Shown: piece after piece, positions 28,453 to 41,367 of the stretch
How the letters are laid out: each line of letters starts with the position of its first letter
Position numbering within the stretch: position 1 is the first letter of the stretch
Source of the DNA: Acidobacteria bacterium 13_2_20CM_2_57_6
Lineage (GTDB): Bacteria; Acidobacteriota; Terriglobia; Acidiferrales; UBA7541
Direction: 5' to 3'
Assembly (NCBI GenBank): GCA_001917435.1
Contig: MNEA01000153.1
Coordinates: 1-64,000, forward strand
DNA: 64,000 bases
Position numbers and translations under genes: made by a program
Notes under the pieces: model-generated
Databases searched by the model: none
The model's input: the letters and a program-made list of their open reading frames with translations, nothing else
What the model was told of the DNA's origin: nothing

Positions 28453-30264
28453 ATGGACCCGAAGTTCATCCGAAATTTCTGCATCATCGCGCATATCGAC
28501 CACGGCAAATCCACGCTCGCCGACCGCCTGCTCGAAATGACCGGGGCGCTCTCGCAGCGCGAAATGCACGAGCAAGTCCTCGACTCCATGGACCTCGAGC
28601 GCGAGCGCGGCATCACCATCAAGGCAAAAAGTATCAGGCTGCACTACAAAGCGAAAGATGGAAACACATACCGCTTGAATTTAATTGATACACCCGGCCA
28701 TGTGGATTTTTCCTACGAAGTTTCGCGCGCCCTCTCCGCCTGCGAAGGCGCCCTCCTGGTTGTGGACGCTTCACAGGGCGTGGAAGCGCAAACCGTCGCC
28801 AATACTTTTCTTGCCGCGGGACACAACCTCACGATTATTCCGGTGATCAATAAAATTGATTTGCCCGCCGCGCAGCCGGATTTCGCCAAAGAACAAATCG
28901 AAAGCGTGCTGGCGATTCCCGCGGAAGACGCTCTGCTCATCAGCGCGAAAAGCGGCCTCGGCGTCGACGAAGTTCTCGAAGCCATCGTTGCCCGCATTCC
29001 GCCGCCCAAAGGCAGCGCGGAAAATCCGTTGCAGGCGCTGATTTTCGATTCGTGGTTCGACATTTACCGCGGCGCCGTCGTGCTTGTGCGCGTGATGGAA
29101 GGCCGCGTTTCGAATCACCTGAAAATCAAGCTGGTCGCTGGAAACGAAACGTACGAGGTCGAGCAACTCGGAACGCTCACGCCCAAACCTGTCGCGCTCG
29201 AGGAACTTGAAGCCGGCGACGTCGGCTTCATCGTCGCAAACATCAAACGCGTTGCCGATGCGCGCATGGGCGACACGGTGATTGAAGTGGCGCGCCCTGC
29301 TCCCGCGCTCCCTGGATTCGAAGCCATCAAGCCGATGGTTTTCGCCGGACTGTTTCCGGTGCTCGCTGACGACTACGAACCATTGCGCGACGCGCTCGGA
29401 AAACTGCAATTGAACGACGCGGCATTTTTTTACGAGCCGGAAAATTCCGTCGCGCTCGGCTTCGGTTTCCGCTGCGGCTTCCTGGGTCTGCTACACATGG
29501 AAATCGTGCAGGAGCGGCTGGAGCGCGAATTCGGCCTCAATCTAATTACGACCGCGCCGAGCGTGCGCTATCGCATCACGCGCGTGACCGGCGAAGTGAT
29601 TGAAGTTGATAGCCCTTCGAAATTCCCGAATCCCAGCGACATTGAAAAAATCGAAGAGCCCCTCATCACTGCGATGATCATCACCAACGAAGATTCCATC
29701 GGTGGAATCCTGCAGCTCTGCCAGGAAAAACGCGGCGCGCAGAAAAAGTTCGAGTATTTGTCACCGACGCGCGTCATGCTCACCTACGAACTGCCGCTGA
29801 ATGAAATCGTGCTCGATTTCTACGACCGGCTAAAATCCACGTCACGCGGCTACGCCTCGCTGGACTACCATCTTGCGGGCTACAGCGAATCCGACTTGAT
29901 CAAACTGGACGTGCTCGTCGCCGGCGAGCCGGTGGACGCCCTGGCGCTGATCATCCATCGCGACTTTGCAGCGGAGCGCGGGCGCGACCTGGTGACGCGC
30001 CTGCGAAAACTGATTCCGCGGCAAATGTTCGAAGTGCCGATTCAGGCGGCCATTGGCAGCCGCGTGATCGCGCGCGAAACCGTCGCGGCGATTCGCAAAA
30101 ACGTTCTTGCCAAGTGCTACGGTGGCGACATTTCCCGCAAACGCAAACTCCTCGAAAAACAAAAAGAAGGCAAGCGCCGCATGAAGCGCGTCGGCCAGGT
30201 GGACATCCCGCAAGAAGCCTTCCTCGCCGTTCTCAAAGTAGCTTCCTCCGACGACGACGAATAA
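28453..30264 (+). CDS. lepA: Elongation factor 4 (LepA) GTPase
   Basis: Translation GTPase that acts on paused or mis-translocated ribosomes and in 30S biogenesis. 603 residues, the usual length. G1 [20 protein letters not shown], switch region [15 protein letters not shown]3 [16 protein letters not shown] and G4 [12 protein letters not shown] are intact. The LepA-specific C-terminal domain is present ([20 protein letters not shown] near the end). Convergent with xseA, 29 bases apart. The 254 bases upstream contain no other gene; no clear promoter could be named. Confidence 0.96.
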
Positions 30265-30293
30265 TTCCTCTCCATTCGGATGTAAAATCTGCT

Positions 30294-31658
30294 TCACTGT
30301 TCGTCCTTCCTCTTTACTTCCGTACTCAAGCGGCCGCGGTGGAGCTGGATGGCGACGGTGTCGCCGAGTGCGACTTGGGCGGCGTCGCGGAGGAGGTTGC
30401 CGGTAGCGTCAGTGGCGATGGCGTAGCCGCGTTCCAAAACTTTCAAGGGACCGCGTTCCTGGAGTTGCAGCGCGAGGCGCTGCCAGCGCTCGCGCTTGGC
30501 GCGGTGGAGGCGTTCGATGCGGACGCCGAGATCGGCGGTGCGCTTTTCTAGACGCAAACGGAAGGTGGCGATCTTCACACGAAAATCAAACGAAGCGATG
30601 CGCAGGTATGCCGCAGTGTAGCGCTTGCGGGATTGCTCGAGGCGCGTGCGAAGGCCGAGCGCGAGGCGCGAAGTCATCTCATCGGCGCGCTGCCGCTGCT
30701 GGCGAAGCAGATCGAGCGGCCGGCGGAATCCGGGGCGCGCGGAAAGTTCGTGAATGCGGCGGCTGAGCACGAGAACGCGGTAGCGCATTTGCTCGGCAAG
30801 GGCGCCGCGCAGCTCGGCGATATGCTTGTCAAATTCGCGGCGCGTCTGAACCACAAGCTCGGCGGCGGCGGACGGAGTAGAAGCGCGGACATCGACAACA
30901 AAATCGGCGATGGTGAAATCCGTTTCGTGGCCGACGCCGGAGATGACGGGAATTTCCGAGGCGAAGATAGCGCGCGCCACGATTTCCTCGTTGAAGGACC
31001 ACAAATCTTCCATAGAGCCGCCGCCTCGCGCGAGGATGAGCACGTCGACGAGTTTCCCTTTATTGAAGAATTTCAGCGCCTTGACGATTTCTTCGGCAGC
31101 GCCCTCGCCCTGAACGCGCACGGGATACAGCATGAGGTGAACATTGGGAAAGCGCCGTGTGAGGATGCGCACGACGTCACGGACGGCAGCGCCTTTTGGC
31201 GAACTGACGATGCCGATGCGGCTGGGAAGAAGCGGCAACGGTTTTTTGCGTGAGGCATCGAAGAGGCCTTCGGCTTCGAGGCGTTTTTTCAATTGCTCGA
31301 AGGCGAGTTGCAGAGCACCCTGCCCTACGAGGTCGATTTTCTCGACGTAAATCTGATATTCGCCGCGCTGTTCGTAAACACTGATGCTGCCGCGCACGGT
31401 GATTTGCAAGCCGTCTTCGGGACGGAACTTGATGCCGCGCTGCTGCTGCTTGAAATAAACGCATTTCACTTGAGCGCGATCGTCTTTGAGCGTGAAGTAG
31501 ATGTGGCCGGACTGGGCTGCGCGGCAGTTGGAGATTTCGCCCTGCACACTGATGTCGGTAAAGTTTTTGGCGAGGAGGTCGCGGATCTTTCCGGTCAGCT
31601 CGCTGACGGTAAAGGTGTGGCGCGTGGGCATCAGGTTGAAAGTGAGTTGCTGGGTCAT
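30294..31658 (-). CDS. xseA: Exodeoxyribonuclease VII large subunit
   Basis: Catalytic subunit of the single-strand-specific exonuclease that works with XseB in repair and plasmid/phage DNA metabolism. 454 residues. OB-fold N-terminus FTVSELTGKIRDLLAKNFTD with VQGEISNC; the catalytic domain has GIVSSPKGAAVRDVVRIL, ILARGGGSMEDLWSFNEEIV and SGVGHETDFTIADFVVDVRA; a long coiled region and GPLKVLERGYAIATD close it. No xseB is seen adjacent. A very strong promoter sits about 440 bases upstream, leaving a long leader with hairpins. Confidence 0.95.
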   Translation of the reverse strand: MTQQLTFNLMPTRHTFTVSELTGKIRDLLAKNFTDISVQGEISNCRAAQSGHIYFTLKDDRAQVKCVYFKQQQRGIKFRPEDGLQITVRGSISVYEQRGEYQIYVEKIDLVGQGALQLAFEQLKKRLEAEGLFDASRKKPLPLLPSRIGIVSSPKGAAVRDVVRILTRRFPNVHLMLYPVRVQGEGAAEEIVKALKFFNKGKLVDVLILARGGGSMEDLWSFNEEIVARAIFASEIPVISGVGHETDFTIADFVVDVRASTPSAAAELVVQTRREFDKHIAELRGALAEQMRYRVLVLSRRIHELSARPGFRRPLDLLRQQRQRADEMTSRLALGLRTRLEQSRKRYTAAYLRIASFDFRVKIATFRLRLEKRTADLGVRIERLHRAKRERWQRLALQLQERGPLKVLERGYAIATDATGNLLRDAAQVALGDTVAIQLHRGRLSTEVKRKDEQ

Positions 31659-33937: not shown

Positions 33938-34399
33938 ATGAAGAACGGGAAAGAGCGGTTTGTGACAATGAGCAAGAAGAGCGCGGCGGGCGTGACGCTG
34001 GCGCTTTGGATGGGAAGCGGCGCGGCAATGGGGCTCGCGGTGCAAGGCCCGACGTTCGTCGTAAAGCCAGAGAAGCAGGGGGCAACAGTGCAAAGCAAGT
34101 TCTATTGCAACATCAAGGCGCTGACGCCGGAAGAGCGGGCGCGGCACAAACAATTGAGCGAGAAATTGTTGGCGGCACGGAAGGAGACCGTGGAGACGGA
34201 GAAAGGGTACGAGTTTCAGTACGGTCCGGATGACGTGACGCTGGCGGAGTTGGCGCAGTGGGTGGTGGCGGAAAGCAAGTGCTGCCCGTTTTTTGATTTT
34301 CACATTGACTTGGAGAACGGGGGAAAATTGGTCTGTTTGCGATTGACGGGAGAAGAAGGGATCAAGGCGTTTATTCGCGCGGAGTTCAGCATTCATTGA
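33938..34399 (+). CDS. Small CCPF-motif protein under MerR-type promoter
   Basis: 153 residues from the ATG at 33938 (GGAGG five bases before it). The N-terminus has a hydrophobic stretch (SAAGVTLALWMGSGAAMGLA) that may be a signal or anchor. The conserved part runs CNIKALTPEERARHKQLSEK to the end, with VAESKCCPFFDFHIDLENGG and LVCLRLTGEEGIKAFI. Similar small proteins with a Cys-Cys-Pro-Phe motif, usually without an export signal, occur next to MerR or mercury/arsenic genes; I know of no biochemical role. The paired cysteines and MerR control suggest binding or sensing a thiophilic metal. Confidence 0.78.
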   Translation: MKNGKERFVTMSKKSAAGVTLALWMGSGAAMGLAVQGPTFVVKPEKQGATVQSKFYCNIKALTPEERARHKQLSEKLLAARKETVETEKGYEFQYGPDDVTLAELAQWVVAESKCCPFFDFHIDLENGGKLVCLRLTGEEGIKAFIRAEFSIH

Positions 34400-34431
34400 C
34401 GCACCGGCGGCGAGCATCGCCGATGAAGAGT

Positions 34432-34821
34432 TCAGCTCCAGAGGCGCCGTAGTTTATAGGTGTCAAAAACAGTGTCGTTCGAGAGAATCGGAAGATTCTC
34501 GGCCTGGCATTGCGCGATCAGCATGCGGTCGAAAGGGTCCTTATGCGGGCCGGGGAGGAGGCCCGCGCGGGCGGCCTGCGCGGACGTGATCGGAAGGGAT
34601 TCAAACGATTCCTGGAGAAGGATGGCGTCAGAGCGGAAAGCCAGGTCGGCGGCCTGACGAAGTTTGCCGATGAGGGATTTGGTGGCGATCTCCCATGCCG
34701 AGGCGGCGCTCACAAAGACAGCATTGGAACGCGCGCGAATGAATCTGCGTGCGGTGGGCGGGAGCGCGGGATCGTCAGCGAGCCACCAAAGAAGCGCGTG
34801 GGTGTGCAGGAGCAGGCGTAG
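34432..34821 (-). pseudogene. Inactivated VapC PIN-domain toxin
   Basis: Nearly full-length PIN domain: LRLLLHTHALLWWLADDPAL at the N-terminus, SAASAWEIATKSLIGKL, then PHKDPFDRMLIAQCQAENLP and ILSNDTVFDTY. Two defects are visible. The first catalytic aspartate of LLLDTHALLWWL is histidine (CAC). There is also no ATG, GTG or TTG where translation should begin: the frame reads TGA TTT CTA CGC CTG right after the antitoxin stop. Internal ATG-less translation from about 34713 would miss the active site. The gene directly follows a frameshifted antitoxin, so the whole module looks dead. Confidence 0.78.
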
Positions 34822-34824
34822 AAA

Positions 34825-35052
34825 TCACTCCCAGGCTTTGAGTTCCGACTGGGGGAGAGGCTCGAAGAATTCAGGGTCGACCTTGAGTTTTCCTTTCATG
34901 CTTCCGGGTTTGCGCTGCCCCGTTTTCTCGCGAAGAGGCTGAAGGCGAACGAGCGGCTGACCGCCGCGGGCGATGATGACCTCTTCGCCTTCGTGGGCTT
35001 TTTCGATAAGTCGCGAGAGGTGGGCTGAGCGTGGTGAATCTTGACCGTAGGG
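34825..35052 (-). pseudogene. Frameshifted VapB/Phd antitoxin
   Basis: The minus strand encodes PTVKIHHAQ in one frame and HLSRLIEKAHEGEEVIIARG-GQPLVRLQPL in the next, ending ELKAWE at a TGA (34827-34825). Together they make a normal Phd/VapB antitoxin (usual form TVNIHxAKTHLSRLIExAxxGEEVIIARxGxPVARL). One base is missing between GCTCAG and CCCACC near 35015, and no start codon precedes the first part. A TTAGCTAGCTAA palindrome upstream probably was the operator. It abuts the dead VapC gene. Confidence 0.72.
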
Positions 35053-35069
35053 ATATCAGCTAACTCAGC

Positions 35070-35081
35070 TTAGCTAGCTAA
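35070..35081. promoter_or_regulatory. Palindrome upstream of the dead vapBC, probable old operator
   Basis: TTAGCTAGCTAA, a perfect 12-base palindrome, flanked at some distance by GATATC on each side (35052-35057 and 35088-35093). Toxin-antitoxin operators normally sit here. Confidence 0.45.
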
Positions 35082-35102
35082 AGGACGGATATCAACCGGG
35101 GG

Positions 35103-35345
35103 TCAACGGCGAAAGTGCGAAATGAGCCAAAAAAGAAGACTGAGACCGGCGCTAAGGACGAGGCAGGTGACGATCGGAAAGTAGAAGGTGGTGTGTTCGC
35201 CGCGGTGGACGATGTCGCCAGGGAGGCGGCCGAGGCGCAAGGGGAGCTTGCCGCCGAAGTAAAAGAGCGCGCCGAGGAAGACCAAGAGGACGCCAAGAAC
35301 GAGGAGCATACGGCCGAGTTCGCGGAGGGGATCCATGAAAAACAT
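35103..35345 (-). CDS. DUF2905-type small membrane protein
   Basis: 80 residues with two membrane helices: LGRMLLVLGVLLVFLGALFY and FYFPIVTCLVLSAGLSLLFW, joined by GGKLPLRLGRLPGDIVHRGE, the signature of this widespread domain of unknown function. Start may be 35345 or 35336 (MDPLRELGRML), the latter fitting the family better. Located after ndk on the same strand; function unknown. Confidence 0.85.
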   Translation of the reverse strand: MFFMDPLRELGRMLLVLGVLLVFLGALFYFGGKLPLRLGRLPGDIVHRGEHTTFYFPIVTCLVLSAGLSLLFWLISHFRR

Positions 35346-36003: not shown

Positions 36004-36765
36004 TCATTTTAAGGCCGCGGCGAGAGTCGAGCCGAGATCCGCGGGAGTTTCGACGGTGCGGATACCGGCGGCAGCCATCGCGGCGTATTTGTCCTTGGCC
36101 GTGCCCTGACCGCCGCTGATGATGGCGCCGGCATGGCCCATGCGGCGTCCCGGCGGAGCCGTTTGCCCCGCGATGAAGCCGACGACCGGCTTCTTCACGT
36201 TGGCTTTGATCCATTCGGCGGCGCGCTCTTCGGCGTTGCCACCGATTTCGCCAATCATGATGATGGCGTGGGTGTGCGGATCATCGTTGAAAAACTGGAT
36301 GGCGTCAAGAAACGTCGTGCCGATGATGGGATCGCCCCCGATGCCGATGCAGGTGGATTGGCCGATGCCGAGCTGCGTCAATTGATGGACGGCTTCGTAG
36401 GTGAGCGTGCCACTGCGGCTGACGACGCCGACGTGGCCTTGCTTGTGGATGCGCCCGGGCATGATGCCGATTTTGCATTTGCCGGGAGAGATGATGCCGG
36501 GGCAGTTTGGGCCAATGAGGCGCGTTTTCTTGAAATCGACGACGGAGGAGACGCGCACCATGTCAAGGGCGGGGATGCCTTCGGTGATGCAGACGACGAG
36601 CGAAAGCTGAGCGTCAGCGGCTTCGAGGATGGCATCGGCGGCGTAGGGAGGGGGAACAAAAATCACAGAGGCGTTTGCGCTAGTGGCCTTGGCAGCGTCG
36701 GCGACGGTGTTGAAGACAGGGCGCTCAAGATGTTTGGTGCCGCCCTTGCCTGGCGTGACCCCGCC
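36004..36765 (-). pseudogene. sucD: Succinyl-CoA ligase alpha subunit lacking its N-terminus
   Basis: The frame from 36765 to 36004 encodes SucD from [20 protein letters not shown] (residue about 37 of E. coli SucD) to the normal C-terminus. The phosphorylated histidine is retained in [14 protein letters not shown], as are [17 protein letters not shown] and [15 protein letters not shown]. Missing are the start codon and the first 36 or so residues, including the glycine-rich GFTGxxG CoA-binding turn. Upstream, the DNA is the 3' end of sucC in a different frame, joined with no spacer. The first ATG-type start in frame is near 36666, which would remove even more. Either a real deletion or an assembly join; downstream DNA is intact. 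Confidence 0.8.
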
Positions 36766-37918
36766 CGACGACCTTCTGGGCGCCGTCCTTCATGCCGTCG
36801 GCGATGGTAAAGTTCAAACCGCTTTCGCGAAGAATTTGCTGACCGGCTTCGACGTTGGTGCCTTCCATTCGAATGACGACGGGGACCTGCAAATGCAATT
36901 CCTTGGCGGCAGAAACGACGCCAGTGGCGAGAACGTCGCAGCGCAAGATTCCGCCAAAAATATTGATGAAGACGGCTTTGACTTCCGAATCGCTCATCAG
37001 AATGCGGAAAGCGTTCTTGACTTGTTCGGCGGAAGCGCCGCCGCCAACATCGAGGAAATTCGCGGGAGAGCCGCCAGCATACTTGATGATGTCCATGGTG
37101 GCCATGGCAAGACCAGCGCCGTTGACCATGCAAGCGACGCTGCCATCGAGCTTGATGTAGTTGAGGCCGTACTTGGAGGCTTCGACTTCGAGAGGATCCT
37201 CTTCATCGAGGTCGCGAAGTTCGCGGAGATCCTTGTGACGGAAAAGCGCGTTGTCGTCAAAGGCCATCTTGGCATCGAGCGCGACGAGTTTGCCCTCGCC
37301 GGTGAGCACGCACGGATTGATTTCCAGCATGGAGGCGTCGGTGTCAATGAAAGCGCGATGCAGCGACTGGAGGAACGGGATTGCGGAATTCACGACTTCG
37401 CCCGGCAATCCGAGGCCGAAGGCGATTTTGCGAGCCTGGTAAGGCTGCAAACCGACGGCGGGATGAATGGTTTCACGCAAAATGGCGCCGGGATTTTCCT
37501 TGGCGACTTCCTCGATTTCCATGCCGCCAGCGGCGCTGGCCATGAAGACGACACGGCCGGTCTCACGATCGACGAGAAGGCCGAGATAAAGTTCGCGCTT
37601 GATGTCCAGACCTTCTTCGATGAGCAGGCGCTTGACGATGCGGCCAGCGGGACCAGTTTGCGGAGTTACGAGCTTCATGCCGAGCATGTGGCTGGCGATG
37701 TCGGCGGCTTCGTCGGAGGAGTGCGCCAGCTTGACGCCGCCGGCTTTGCCGCGCCCACCGGCGTGAATCTGCGCCTTTACGACGACGACGTTGGCGTGCG
37801 ATCGCAGGCGGTGCGCGGCCTCGCGCGCTTCTTCCTTGCTGAAAGCGACTTCACCGCGTGGAGTCGTGACGCCGTAACGAGACAGAATTGTCTTCGCTTG
37901 ATACTCGTGAATCTTCAT
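36725..37918 (-). CDS. sucC: Succinyl-CoA ligase (ADP/GDP-forming) beta subunit, altered C-terminus
   Basis: ATP-grasp subunit of the TCA-cycle enzyme making succinate and NTP. Start at 37918 ([20 protein letters not shown]); the frame is open to 38059 without family character. ATP-grasp and CoA-ligase parts are complete: [60 protein letters not shown] and [19 protein letters not shown]. After [16 protein letters not shown] the protein continues with an abnormal tail of 13 residues ([13 protein letters not shown]) that is sucD sequence read out of frame. Only a few genuine C-terminal residues are lost, so activity may persist if an alpha subunit exists. Confidence 0.9.
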
Positions 37919-38077
37919 CGCGGTTCCGTTTTCCGTTCGAGTTTGAAGCAGTCTGCTAGTATTAGAATTTTGACGGCAATGGAAACATAGAAGTTTACCC
38001 GGAAGGCGGAAACGGAGCAAGGCGCGGGAAATGGCACGAAAATTGGCGACAGCCGACATGGAGCGTCGAGAGTCGAA

Positions 38078-39136
38078 ATGCTATCTCGCGGCGACATGGC
38101 GATGAAATTGTCGAAACTATCGCTGGTTGAGCGAGTCGAAGCCGGAAGCGTCCTGAACCGAGCGGAAGCGGAAGCTATGATGGAAGAGCTGCTTTCAGGA
38201 CGCGTCAAGACAGCGGAAATTGTGCGATTGCTGGAGGCGCTCAACCGGCGGCCAATTGAGACACAGGAGCTCACGGGATTTGCGCACGTCATGCGAAAGC
38301 ACGCGACCCGCGTGTTTGCGGACGGCGAAGCGCGTCCTGCAAACATGGTGGACACGTGCGGAACGGGCGGAGACGGCGCGAACACGTTTAATATTTCCAC
38401 GGCGGCGGCGATTGTTGCTGCGGCGGCGGGCGCGCGCGTGGCGAAGCATGGGAATCGCGCGGCGAGTTCGCGGAGCGGTTCGGCAGACGTATTGGAAGAA
38501 CTGGGGGTGCGAATCGACCTGCCGTTCGAACGGTATGGGCGGGCGATCCGTGAGATTGGTATTGGGTTTCTGTTCGCGCAAGCCGCACACACGGCAACGC
38601 GGCATGCGGCTCCGGCGCGAAAACAGATTGGCGCGCGAACCGTGTTCAATTTGCTCGGGCCGCTGACGAATCCAGCGGGGGCTCAAGCGCAGGTGCTGGG
38701 CGTTTTTTCAGAGGAGGTGATCGCCCTAGTGGCAGCAACGCTGGCTGAGCTGGGCGTCGAGCGGGCGTTTGTGGTGCATGGCGCTGGTGGCCTTGATGAG
38801 ATTTCTCTTGCGGGGGAAACGATGGTCGCCGAGGTGCGAGGCGGTGCCGTCCGGCGGTTCACGGTGACGCCGGAAGAGTTCGGCGTGGCACGCGCGCCGT
38901 TGGAATCCATTCGCGGCGGTACAGCGACTGAAAATGCGGCCCTTATCGTGCGCCTCCTGCAAGGCGAAGACGGGCCGGCGCGCGATATCGTTGTGGTGAA
39001 TGCCGCGGCTGCGCTAGTCGCGGCAGGCGCGGCTGCCGATTTTCGCGAAGGGGCGGGACTGGCGAGTTTCGTGATTTCATCAGGGGCGGCAGGCAAGAAA
39101 CTGGCGGCTTTGGCCGCGTTCACCGGCAAGAATTAG
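38078..39136 (+). CDS. trpD: Anthranilate phosphoribosyltransferase
   Basis: Second step of tryptophan synthesis: anthranilate + PRPP to phosphoribosylanthranilate. About 345-352 residues depending on the start (38078, or [10 protein letters not shown] at 38096). Glycine-rich PRPP loop [20 protein letters not shown], the [20 protein letters not shown] motif and [15 protein letters not shown] are all present. It is divergent from sucC and separated by a peptidase gene from trpG and trpE, which lie on the opposite strand. Confidence 0.94.
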
Positions 39137-39216
39137 ATTCGCATTCGGGGCTGCGCTTCGGGAAAGAACTCGGAATTAAGAGCTGCCGGGGACGAGGCAC
39201 GTCAGAGGAGAGAACT

Positions 39217-41367
39217 TTGAGAAACATCGTGGTCACTCTGTTGATTGCGATTCTTCCCGCCCAGACGCTCGCGCAGAAGCAAACTACTCCTGCGCCTGCG
39301 CAGGTCGCGCAGGAAATTCGCGAATATCGGATGGACAATGAGGAGCGCATCGTACGAGAGCTGAGTGAATTCCTTGCGATCCCCAACATTGCGAGTGACA
39401 TGCCGAACATCCAGAAAAATGCCGCTCACCTGGCGGAGATGCTGGAGGCGCGGGGGATCGAAACGCACTTGCTGCCGATCAGCGGACGCGGGCCAGTAGT
39501 CTACGGCAAATTGATTTCGCCGGAAGCGAAGCACACAGTAATTTTTTACGCGCACTATGACGGGCAGCCGGTCGACGCGAGCGCATGGAAATGCGCCAAA
39601 CCATTTGAGCCGAAGATTTGGACGAACGGCAAGGACACCTGCGATGGGCAGGCTGAGCCGGGTAAGGGGCTCGAAGAGAAACCAGTGACATCACCAGATA
39701 ATTGGCGGATCTATGCACGGTCCGCGTCTGACGACAAAGGGCCAATTGTGGCGCTACTAGCGGCAATCGATGCGCTTCGGGCGAAGAAGATCCCGCTGGC
39801 GGTGAATTTGAAGGTCATTTTTGAGGGAGAAGAAGAGGCAGGTTCGACAAATCTGCAGCGAACGCTGGAACTTCACAAGAATTTGCTGGGGGCGGACTTG
39901 CTGATCACGGCCGATGGGCCTGTGCACCAGAGCGGGCGCCAGCTGGTTTTCTTTGGAAACCGTGGGGACATCGGGATCGGCATCACGGTATTCGGTCCGG
40001 TACGGGCGTTGCACAGCGGGCACTATGGGAACTGGGCGCCGAATCCAGCGATGGAGTTGTCGCAACTGCTGGCATCCATGAAGGACGCAGACGGACGCGT
40101 GCTGATTGATGGCTACTACGACGATGTCTCGCCACTCGGCGATGCGGAAAAAAAAGCGCTTGCGGAAATGCCGGCGAACGACGCTGATCTGGAACGCGAG
40201 CTTGGCATCGCCAAACCGGAAGGCGGCGGGAAAAAGCTGGTGGAATTGATCATGCAGCCGTCGCTAAATATACGCGGATTGCGCAGCGCGTACGTGGGCG
40301 AGCAGGCGCAGAACGTGGTGCCGGACCGGGCGGAGGCTTCGCTCGATGCGCGTCTTGTAAGAGGAGAGAACCCGCAACAGAAATTCGATCAGATCGCGCT
40401 GTTTATACGAAAGCAAGGCTTCTACGTCATTGATCGCGAGCCCACGATGGAAGAAAGGTGCACCTACCCGCGGATCGCAAAAGTTGTCAATGAAGGAGGA
40501 TATCGCGCTTCGCGGACGCCGATGGATTTGCCGGTTTCGAAAGCGCTGGTACAAGTGGTGCAGGAAGCGACAGGAAACACCACGGTCGTTGCGCCCACGC
40601 TAGGGGGCAGCGTGCCGATGTACATTTTTGAAGACCTCGGGCTACCCTGGATCGGCGTGCCCATCGTGAACTACGACAATCACCAGCACAGCTCGGATGA
40701 AAATTTGCGGCTGGGGCAGTTTTGGAGAGGGATAGAGATTTACGAGGAGCTGTTTGCCGGAATCGGTGAGGACGGACTCCGGATGGAACTGCACGCCTTC
40801 GATTTTGTGGCGGCGGTGACGGAAGCCCATGATGATGCCGTCGTCGGTCTCGGCAGTGATTGCCAATTCGCGCGGCAGGGATTTTTTTTCGACGATCAGA
40901 GAGTGGTAGCGCGTCGCGGTGAAGGGATCCGCCAGCTTGCGGAAAATACTCTTGCCATCGTGATGGATCTGGCTGGTTTTGCCGTGAAAGAGTTTTGGAG
41001 CGCGGACGATTTTCCCTCCAAACGCAGCGCCAATGGCTTGATGACCGAGGCACACGCCAAGGATCGGAAATTTCCCGGCGAGGCGCTCGACGAGCTCCAC
41101 GGAAACGCCTGCCTCCTGCGGCGTGCAAGGCCCAGGAGAAATTACGATTCGTTCGGGCTTGCGGCGGATAATTCCTTCCACGGTAATCTTGTCGTTGCGG
41201 TGGACTTCGACCTGGCAACCCAATTCGCCGAGATACTGCGCGAGGTTGTAGGTAAAGGAATCGTAGTTGTCGAGCAACAAAATCATTTTGGCTTCCTTGA
41301 ACGGCCTCCGCAGTGCGCTTTTTCCAACGCCGTGAGCAATGCTTTCGACTTATTCACACTCTCCTGA
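39217..41367 (+). CDS. Secreted M20-family peptidase with a read-through C-terminus
   Basis: TTG start with AGAGGAG upstream; signal peptide RNIVVTLLIAILPAQTLAQ. Residues to about 518 are a dipeptidase-like M20 enzyme with both zinc-site blocks: VIFYAHYDGQPVDAS, SASDDKGPIVALLAA, FEGEEEAGSTNLQ and LITADGPV; the end of the family is GQFWRGIEIYEELFAGIGE. From there the frame stays open for almost 200 more residues that are simply the antisense of trpG, so the natural stop codon has been lost. Family proteins end at about 500-520 residues. The long tail is unlikely to fold. Function otherwise: hydrolysis of short peptides in the periplasm or outside. Confidence 0.85.
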   Translation: MRNIVVTLLIAILPAQTLAQKQTTPAPAQVAQEIREYRMDNEERIVRELSEFLAIPNIASDMPNIQKNAAHLAEMLEARGIETHLLPISGRGPVVYGKLISPEAKHTVIFYAHYDGQPVDASAWKCAKPFEPKIWTNGKDTCDGQAEPGKGLEEKPVTSPDNWRIYARSASDDKGPIVALLAAIDALRAKKIPLAVNLKVIFEGEEEAGSTNLQRTLELHKNLLGADLLITADGPVHQSGRQLVFFGNRGDIGIGITVFGPVRALHSGHYGNWAPNPAMELSQLLASMKDADGRVLIDGYYDDVSPLGDAEKKALAEMPANDADLERELGIAKPEGGGKKLVELIMQPSLNIRGLRSAYVGEQAQNVVPDRAEASLDARLVRGENPQQKFDQIALFIRKQGFYVIDREPTMEERCTYPRIAKVVNEGGYRASRTPMDLPVSKALVQVVQEATGNTTVVAPTLGGSVPMYIFEDLGLPWIGVPIVNYDNHQHSSDENLRLGQFWRGIEIYEELFAGIGEDGLRMELHAFDFVAAVTEAHDDAVVGLGSDCQFARQGFFFDDQRVVARRGEGIRQLAENTLAIVMDLAGFAVKEFWSADDFPSKRSANGLMTEAHAKDRKFPGEALDELHGNACLLRRARPRRNYDSFGLAADNSFHGNLVVAVDFDLATQFAEILREVVGKGIVVVEQQNHFGFLERPPQCAFSNAVSNAFDLFTLS
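40642..41286 (-). CDS. trpG: Anthranilate synthase glutamine amidotransferase subunit, extended C-terminus
   Basis: Class I glutamine amidotransferase giving ammonia to TrpE. MILLLDNYDSFTYNLAQYLG is diagnostic; oxyanion motif ISPGPCTPQEAG; nucleophile elbow GVCLGHQAIGAAFGG (Cys about 79); His-Glu of the triad in GVQFHPESVLTDSGKQLLVN. The family ends a few residues after this point, but here the frame goes on 30 residues into the antisense of the M20 gene before a stop. PCTP replaces the common PGTP. The ATG overlaps the trpE stop (ATGA), so translation is coupled. Confidence 0.9.
   Translation of the reverse strand: MILLLDNYDSFTYNLAQYLGELGCQVEVHRNDKITVEGIIRRKPERIVISPGPCTPQEAGVSVELVERLAGKFPILGVCLGHQAIGAAFGGKIVRAPKLFHGKTSQIHHDGKSIFRKLADPFTATRYHSLIVEKKSLPRELAITAETDDGIIMGFRHRRHKIEGVQFHPESVLTDSGKQLLVNLYPSPKLPQPQIFIRAVLVIVVVHDGHADPG

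Follow-up and report, generated by a model that had tools for sequence, protein, structure and literature searches.

Does the join between sucC and sucD described here reflect the loss of a TCA cycle enzyme, or a fault in the assembly? The locus lies in a stretch of 64,000 nucleotides, all of which was analysed and which we refer to as the window. The window belongs to a contig of 77,098 bases, in a draft genome of 4.46 Mb that has 169 contigs and is 81.56% complete. The original prediction was that sucC runs directly into a sucD gene deprived of its first ~36 residues. Either the organism would have a broken or fused TCA enzyme or the junction would be an assembly join.

The sucC gene runs into a truncated sucD gene

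The features of the junction are as follows.

36767..37918, minus strand: sucC; 384 codons, from MKIHEYQ to KVV; the stop and the terminal residues before it, ALAGGAR in many relatives, are lost
36765..36766, minus strand: junction 1; 127 bases are gone between 36766 and 36765
36004..36765, minus strand: sucD; 253 codons and the stop, beginning with residue 37; residues 1–36 are lost

The sucC gene starts with MKIHEYQ at position 37918 of the minus strand and is open through KVV at 36767. Positions 36796–36767 encode a SucC stretch, [10 protein letters not shown], that ends with this KVV. Base 36766 is a single extra base, after which GGVTPGKGG of sucD begins at 36765 in a shifted frame. From its residue 37, sucD then continues to a stop at 36004. 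Past the junction, the sucC frame is a meaningless tail that extends down to 36725. The window contains neither the end of SucC and the sucC stop nor the SucD start and residues 1–36, which include the GFTGREG loop. Translation, and the genus alignment described below, bear out the direct run of sucC into a sucD without its first 36 residues. The predicted change of frame after KVV was also correct, with the one extra base at 36766 preceding GGVTPGKGG.

In SucC, Pfam matches cover the ATP-grasp domain (PF08442) at positions 1–201 of 202 and the CoA-ligase domain (PF00549) at 1–126 of 128. Both domains are present and the loss is limited to the C-terminal tail. In SucD, the CoA-ligase domain (PF00549) is likewise covered at 1–126 of 128. 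The CoA_binding domain of SucD is covered at 35–97 of 97 only; the complete domain expected of a functional SucD is not there.

The glycine-rich loop of SucD binds CoA. The frames on both sides of the junction are open and one base apart, which speaks for a working fused or frameshifted enzyme made by the joined genes. We give this reading almost no credence; the first 36 SucD residues have gone, with the GFTGREG loop and the start of the CoA_binding domain. The same N-terminus is present in 29 of 29 complete loci of the genus and, among the loci read in other genera, in 6 of 6. Judging from the sequence, a SucD remnant without its start and glycine-rich loop would be very unlikely to give an active enzyme. 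Fusion has no positive support, and a broken enzyme is the second-ranked reading of the locus.

Relatives retain 127 bases at the gene boundary

We searched for the sucCD locus in 41 genomes, including the genome under study, and 39 of these matched. The genus set comprised 36 genomes, 35 besides our own. Using MAFFT, we aligned the junction with 22 loci of the same genus in which a single contig carries both genes; locus L017 of genome G022 was left out since its contig ends at the junction. The comparison with close relatives, which had been proposed as a check, gave a uniform answer: 127 extra bases are present in all 22 aligned loci, without length variation. The alignment has one gap of 127 columns in the window and no gap at this position in any of the relatives. 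The open frames of two relatives also yield 127 (the frame of G048 is antisense). For six relatives, the ends of the BLASTN matches at junction 1 gave 127, 128, 128, 131, 131 and 131 bases, with a range of 125–131 overall. This spread arises because letters common to both ends are assigned differently.

The 127 bases of the relatives contain the end of SucC (ALAGGAR in many), the ATGA in which the sucC stop and the sucD start overlap, and 36 SucD residues, which in G011 are [36 protein letters not shown]. The original prediction listed the sucC stop, a spacer, the sucD start and the glycine-rich turn as missing. The stop, the start and the GFTGREG loop are indeed missing. The spacer is not, since the genes of the relatives overlap by ATGA.

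The SucD N-terminus is complete in 29 of the 35 other genus genomes. In G041, G046 and G050, which were counted by spacing only, the sucC and sucD matches are separated by 128. The locus search found no sucCD match in G013 (77% complete) or G047 (74% complete). Contigs of G022 end inside the boundary stretch; two of them, L161:1–113 and L162:1–40, stop within this same sucC/sucD stretch, so the spot breaks another assembly as well. Among other genera, 15 of 16 genomes matched in the locus search. The loss is not common to the relatives, the stretch being kept in every aligned genus locus and in every complete locus read. The window agrees with an ordinary same-genus sucC-sucD pair in sequence, gene order and neighbours, and differs in lacking the 127 bases that span the gene boundary.

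The named record closest to the window SucC is CAJCHZ010000083.1 (79%), labelled Betaproteobacteria, followed by an Acidobacteria genome (71%). Further Acidobacteria records, at 62–69%, are mixed with Bacillota and others. The bacterium that carries the window is probably an acidobacterium. The Betaproteobacteria label of CAJCHZ010000083.1 (our locus L062), the SucC of which is the nearest named relative, looks wrong.

A second cut lies 4 kb from the first

We compared the window with stretches from six relatives. Not all of these span the whole window; coverage by G011 is limited to ~29–46 kb. A place was scored as clean if the shorter side had no more than 12 bases between two matches and the longer side had 40–1000 more. 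By this rule, 36765/36766 and 40742/40743 are the only places where the window is cleanly shorter, in each case against 6 of 6 relatives. The reverse, a relative being shorter, was tagged once (G023, 14459/12194) and dropped as a product of overlapping repeat matches. The 12-base cut-off matters for this count, there being reverse near misses at G048 15496/15602 (14 bases), G014 49010/49944 (19 bases) and G010 42790/42874 (22 bases). A G011 gap at 39189/39200 fell outside the size limit. Sites where the relatives are longer but 20–60 window bases are left between the matches were not counted.

The second cut and the block between the cuts involve the following features.

36768..40742: block of ~4 kb with sucC, a Glycos_transf_3 gene fitting trpD and the M20 peptidase gene
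39217..40742, plus strand: M20 peptidase gene; the end (GAILADLNW or similar in relatives) is lost
40742..40743: junction 2; 99–190 bases that all six relatives retain are gone
40743..41286, minus strand: trpG-like amidotransferase gene; the end, which reads KNFLSL in most of the six relatives, is lost and the frame continues to 40642

The six relatives keep 99, 103, 112, 120, 125 and 190 bases at 40742/40743. Junction 2 removes the ends of the convergent M20 peptidase and trpG-like genes, together with the spacer that separates them. As a result, the M20 peptidase frame continues to 41367 and forms a false ORF of 716 residues. The block at 36768–40742 matches G048 as one piece that is collinear with its flanks, and the gene order across both cuts is that of the relatives.

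Three other places in the window deserve mention. At 30257–30316, an intergenic spacer is 393–2202 bases shorter in the window than in all six relatives, with 27–52 bases unmatched; this may be a third loss. At 34388–35121, ~650–670 window bases are absent from G048, G017 and G011, and G014 matches much of the stretch. A frameshift suspected at ~54219 was discarded, as there is no gap against G048.

The remaining codons show no decay

For the window against the six relatives, dN/dS was 0.034–0.079 for sucC and 0.039–0.080 for sucD (6 pairs per gene). Among the intact relatives, the values were 0.032–0.072 and 0.041–0.118, respectively (15 pairs per gene). In what remains of sucC and sucD, neither dN/dS nor the open codons pointed to a relaxation of selection or to additional lesions. 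The locus resembles a pseudogenised sucCD in that the frame is broken and the SucD start is lost. It differs from one in that its codons show neither additional lesions nor relaxed selection. An old gene death is expected to decay codons, and so the low dN/dS excludes an old deletion alone. A very recent deletion would give equally low values.

A recent deletion, fixed or common in the population, would have removed succinyl-CoA ligase, and junction 2 would likewise have arisen by real deletion. A CoA-transferase would then take over succinyl-CoA, or the cycle would be incomplete. The contig runs through the junction without N, as such a deletion predicts. However, there would have to be two losses 4 kb apart, the second of which took the ends of two convergent genes. 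Two real deletions at this distance seem less likely than one short piece misjoined at both ends. We regard a recent deletion as unlikely.

Short repeats do not cleanly account for the junction

The original prediction proposed a deletion between short homologous stretches. In its favour, GTCGTC is present on both sides of the lost stretch in some relatives. Clean recombination through GTCGTC would delete 128 bases and unite the genes in one frame. The join in the window keeps one G too many, and this surplus base rules out clean recombination. A deletion between short direct repeats should leave one repeat copy and add nothing. This pattern was not found, and at junction 2 about one base, judged by eye, is common to both sides.

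Exact direct repeats of at least 30 bases within 500 bases were found neither in the window nor in 20 stretches of the own genome. No N or repeat marks either join. An exact overlap shared by contig ends, which would be a clue to the assembler word length, was not found among 28 ends. The length of 127 is also a word length of a common assembler, to which we give little weight. We also considered an assembly tangle caused by unusually conserved sequence, and found no support for it. Identity between relatives is 0.80 in the lost stretch, compared with 0.81 before and 0.78 after. Identical runs of at least 21 bases were found for 43 of 231 relative pairs in the lost stretch, compared with 44 before and 9 after.

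Comparison with the rest of the draft genome

A search of the remaining genome for an intact sucCD, also proposed as a check, found no second sucC or sucD in the own draft genome. This is what a real deletion predicts; it is weak evidence because the genome is only 81.6% complete. CoA-transferase genes, also expected if succinyl-CoA is handled in another way, are present in the genome; a third own match sits at the end of contig C150. All 36 genomes of the genus set, however, have CoA-transferase matches, whether or not their sucCD is intact, so that these matches are uninformative about any special compensation in this organism.

We examined 20 own-genome stretches, totalling 310,566 bases. 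One of the 20 contains 20 consecutive N, suggestive of scaffolding. Besides the window, six stretches of 117,098 bases in all (L166, L169, L176, L181, L182 and L183) were compared with 3–5 relatives each; 4,000 bases of L166 overlap the window, and L183 has no match in G023. The same clean-gap rule was scripted on the main matches of these six stretches. Among the matches listed, the own genome is cleanly shorter than one relative in at least three places (L182/G048, L176/G017 and L169/G023), at each of which another relative matches unbroken. It is cleanly longer than one relative in at least two places (L166/G048 and L169/G048). At L182 8202–8326, the own genome is longer than three of four relatives (G011, G017 and G048), by 125, 125 and 137 bases with a clean break, and no exact direct repeat was found to explain these extra bases. 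In a near miss, L176 12463–12483, the own genome is shorter than two relatives.

Among the matches listed, no place in the 117,098 bases is cleanly shorter than all relatives. An assembly error would therefore be limited to a single spot. Clean gaps as large as those at the two cuts also occur elsewhere, and those against single relatives are compatible with real deletion. Gaps that are found only in the own genome and break genes were seen only at the two cuts.

A local assembly error would explain both cuts

We conclude that the sucCD junction is very probably a local assembly error. An assembly join is favoured because the loss is unique to this draft, a second cut lies 4 kb away, gene order is kept and the codons are undecayed. 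On these four grounds, it is the better supported of the two readings originally offered. The piece of ~4 kb (36768–40742) would have been attached on either side to its true neighbours, with the intervening bases (127 on the sucCD side and ~100–130 on the other) dropped rather than filled in or replaced by N. In the living population, sucC and sucD would then most likely be an ordinary pair that overlaps by ATGA. What is observed is the absence of 127 bases, a second cut, gene order as in the relatives, undecayed codons and one N run elsewhere in the assembly; the software origin of the join, and this mechanism, are inferred. Against an assembly error, the joins are marked by neither N nor repeat, and clean gaps against single relatives occur elsewhere in both directions. 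Furthermore, we found no cause for a tangle, the lost stretch not being unusually conserved.

The other account is that two small, real and very recent deletions 4 kb apart have cost a bacterial population, which is probably acidobacterial, its succinyl-CoA ligase and two convergent gene ends. We consider this improbable, and slightly more so than a recent deletion stated in general terms. If true, the population would live with a TCA cycle left open or with a bypass through a CoA-transferase.

For metagenome-assembled genomes, local assembly errors have been described through which genes become incomplete or incorrect (Chen et al., 2020; PMC7111523). The junction here would be similar, with protein-coding genes left incomplete or incorrect by a local fault of the draft. 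In the part of that work drawn on here, such errors are defined by reads that fail to support the sequence; the present junction was judged by sequence comparison. Two cuts around a 4 kb block are a feature of the present locus and are not described in that part.

If the preferred reading, an assembly error, is correct, annotation from this sequence would falsely show the TCA cycle as interrupted and SucD as truncated, and would include a false peptidase of 716 residues. When a core enzyme looks broken in a draft genome, the cause can be an error in joining. Two clean losses that flank a short block in normal order, and that relatives do not share, could flag bad joins without reads.

One further observation concerns another contig of the draft. 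The start of own contig C60 (L176:1–1439) is 100% identical to an end of contig C5 in G017, which is otherwise ~83% identical around the match. This identity probably indicates a misbinned contig or a shared sample.
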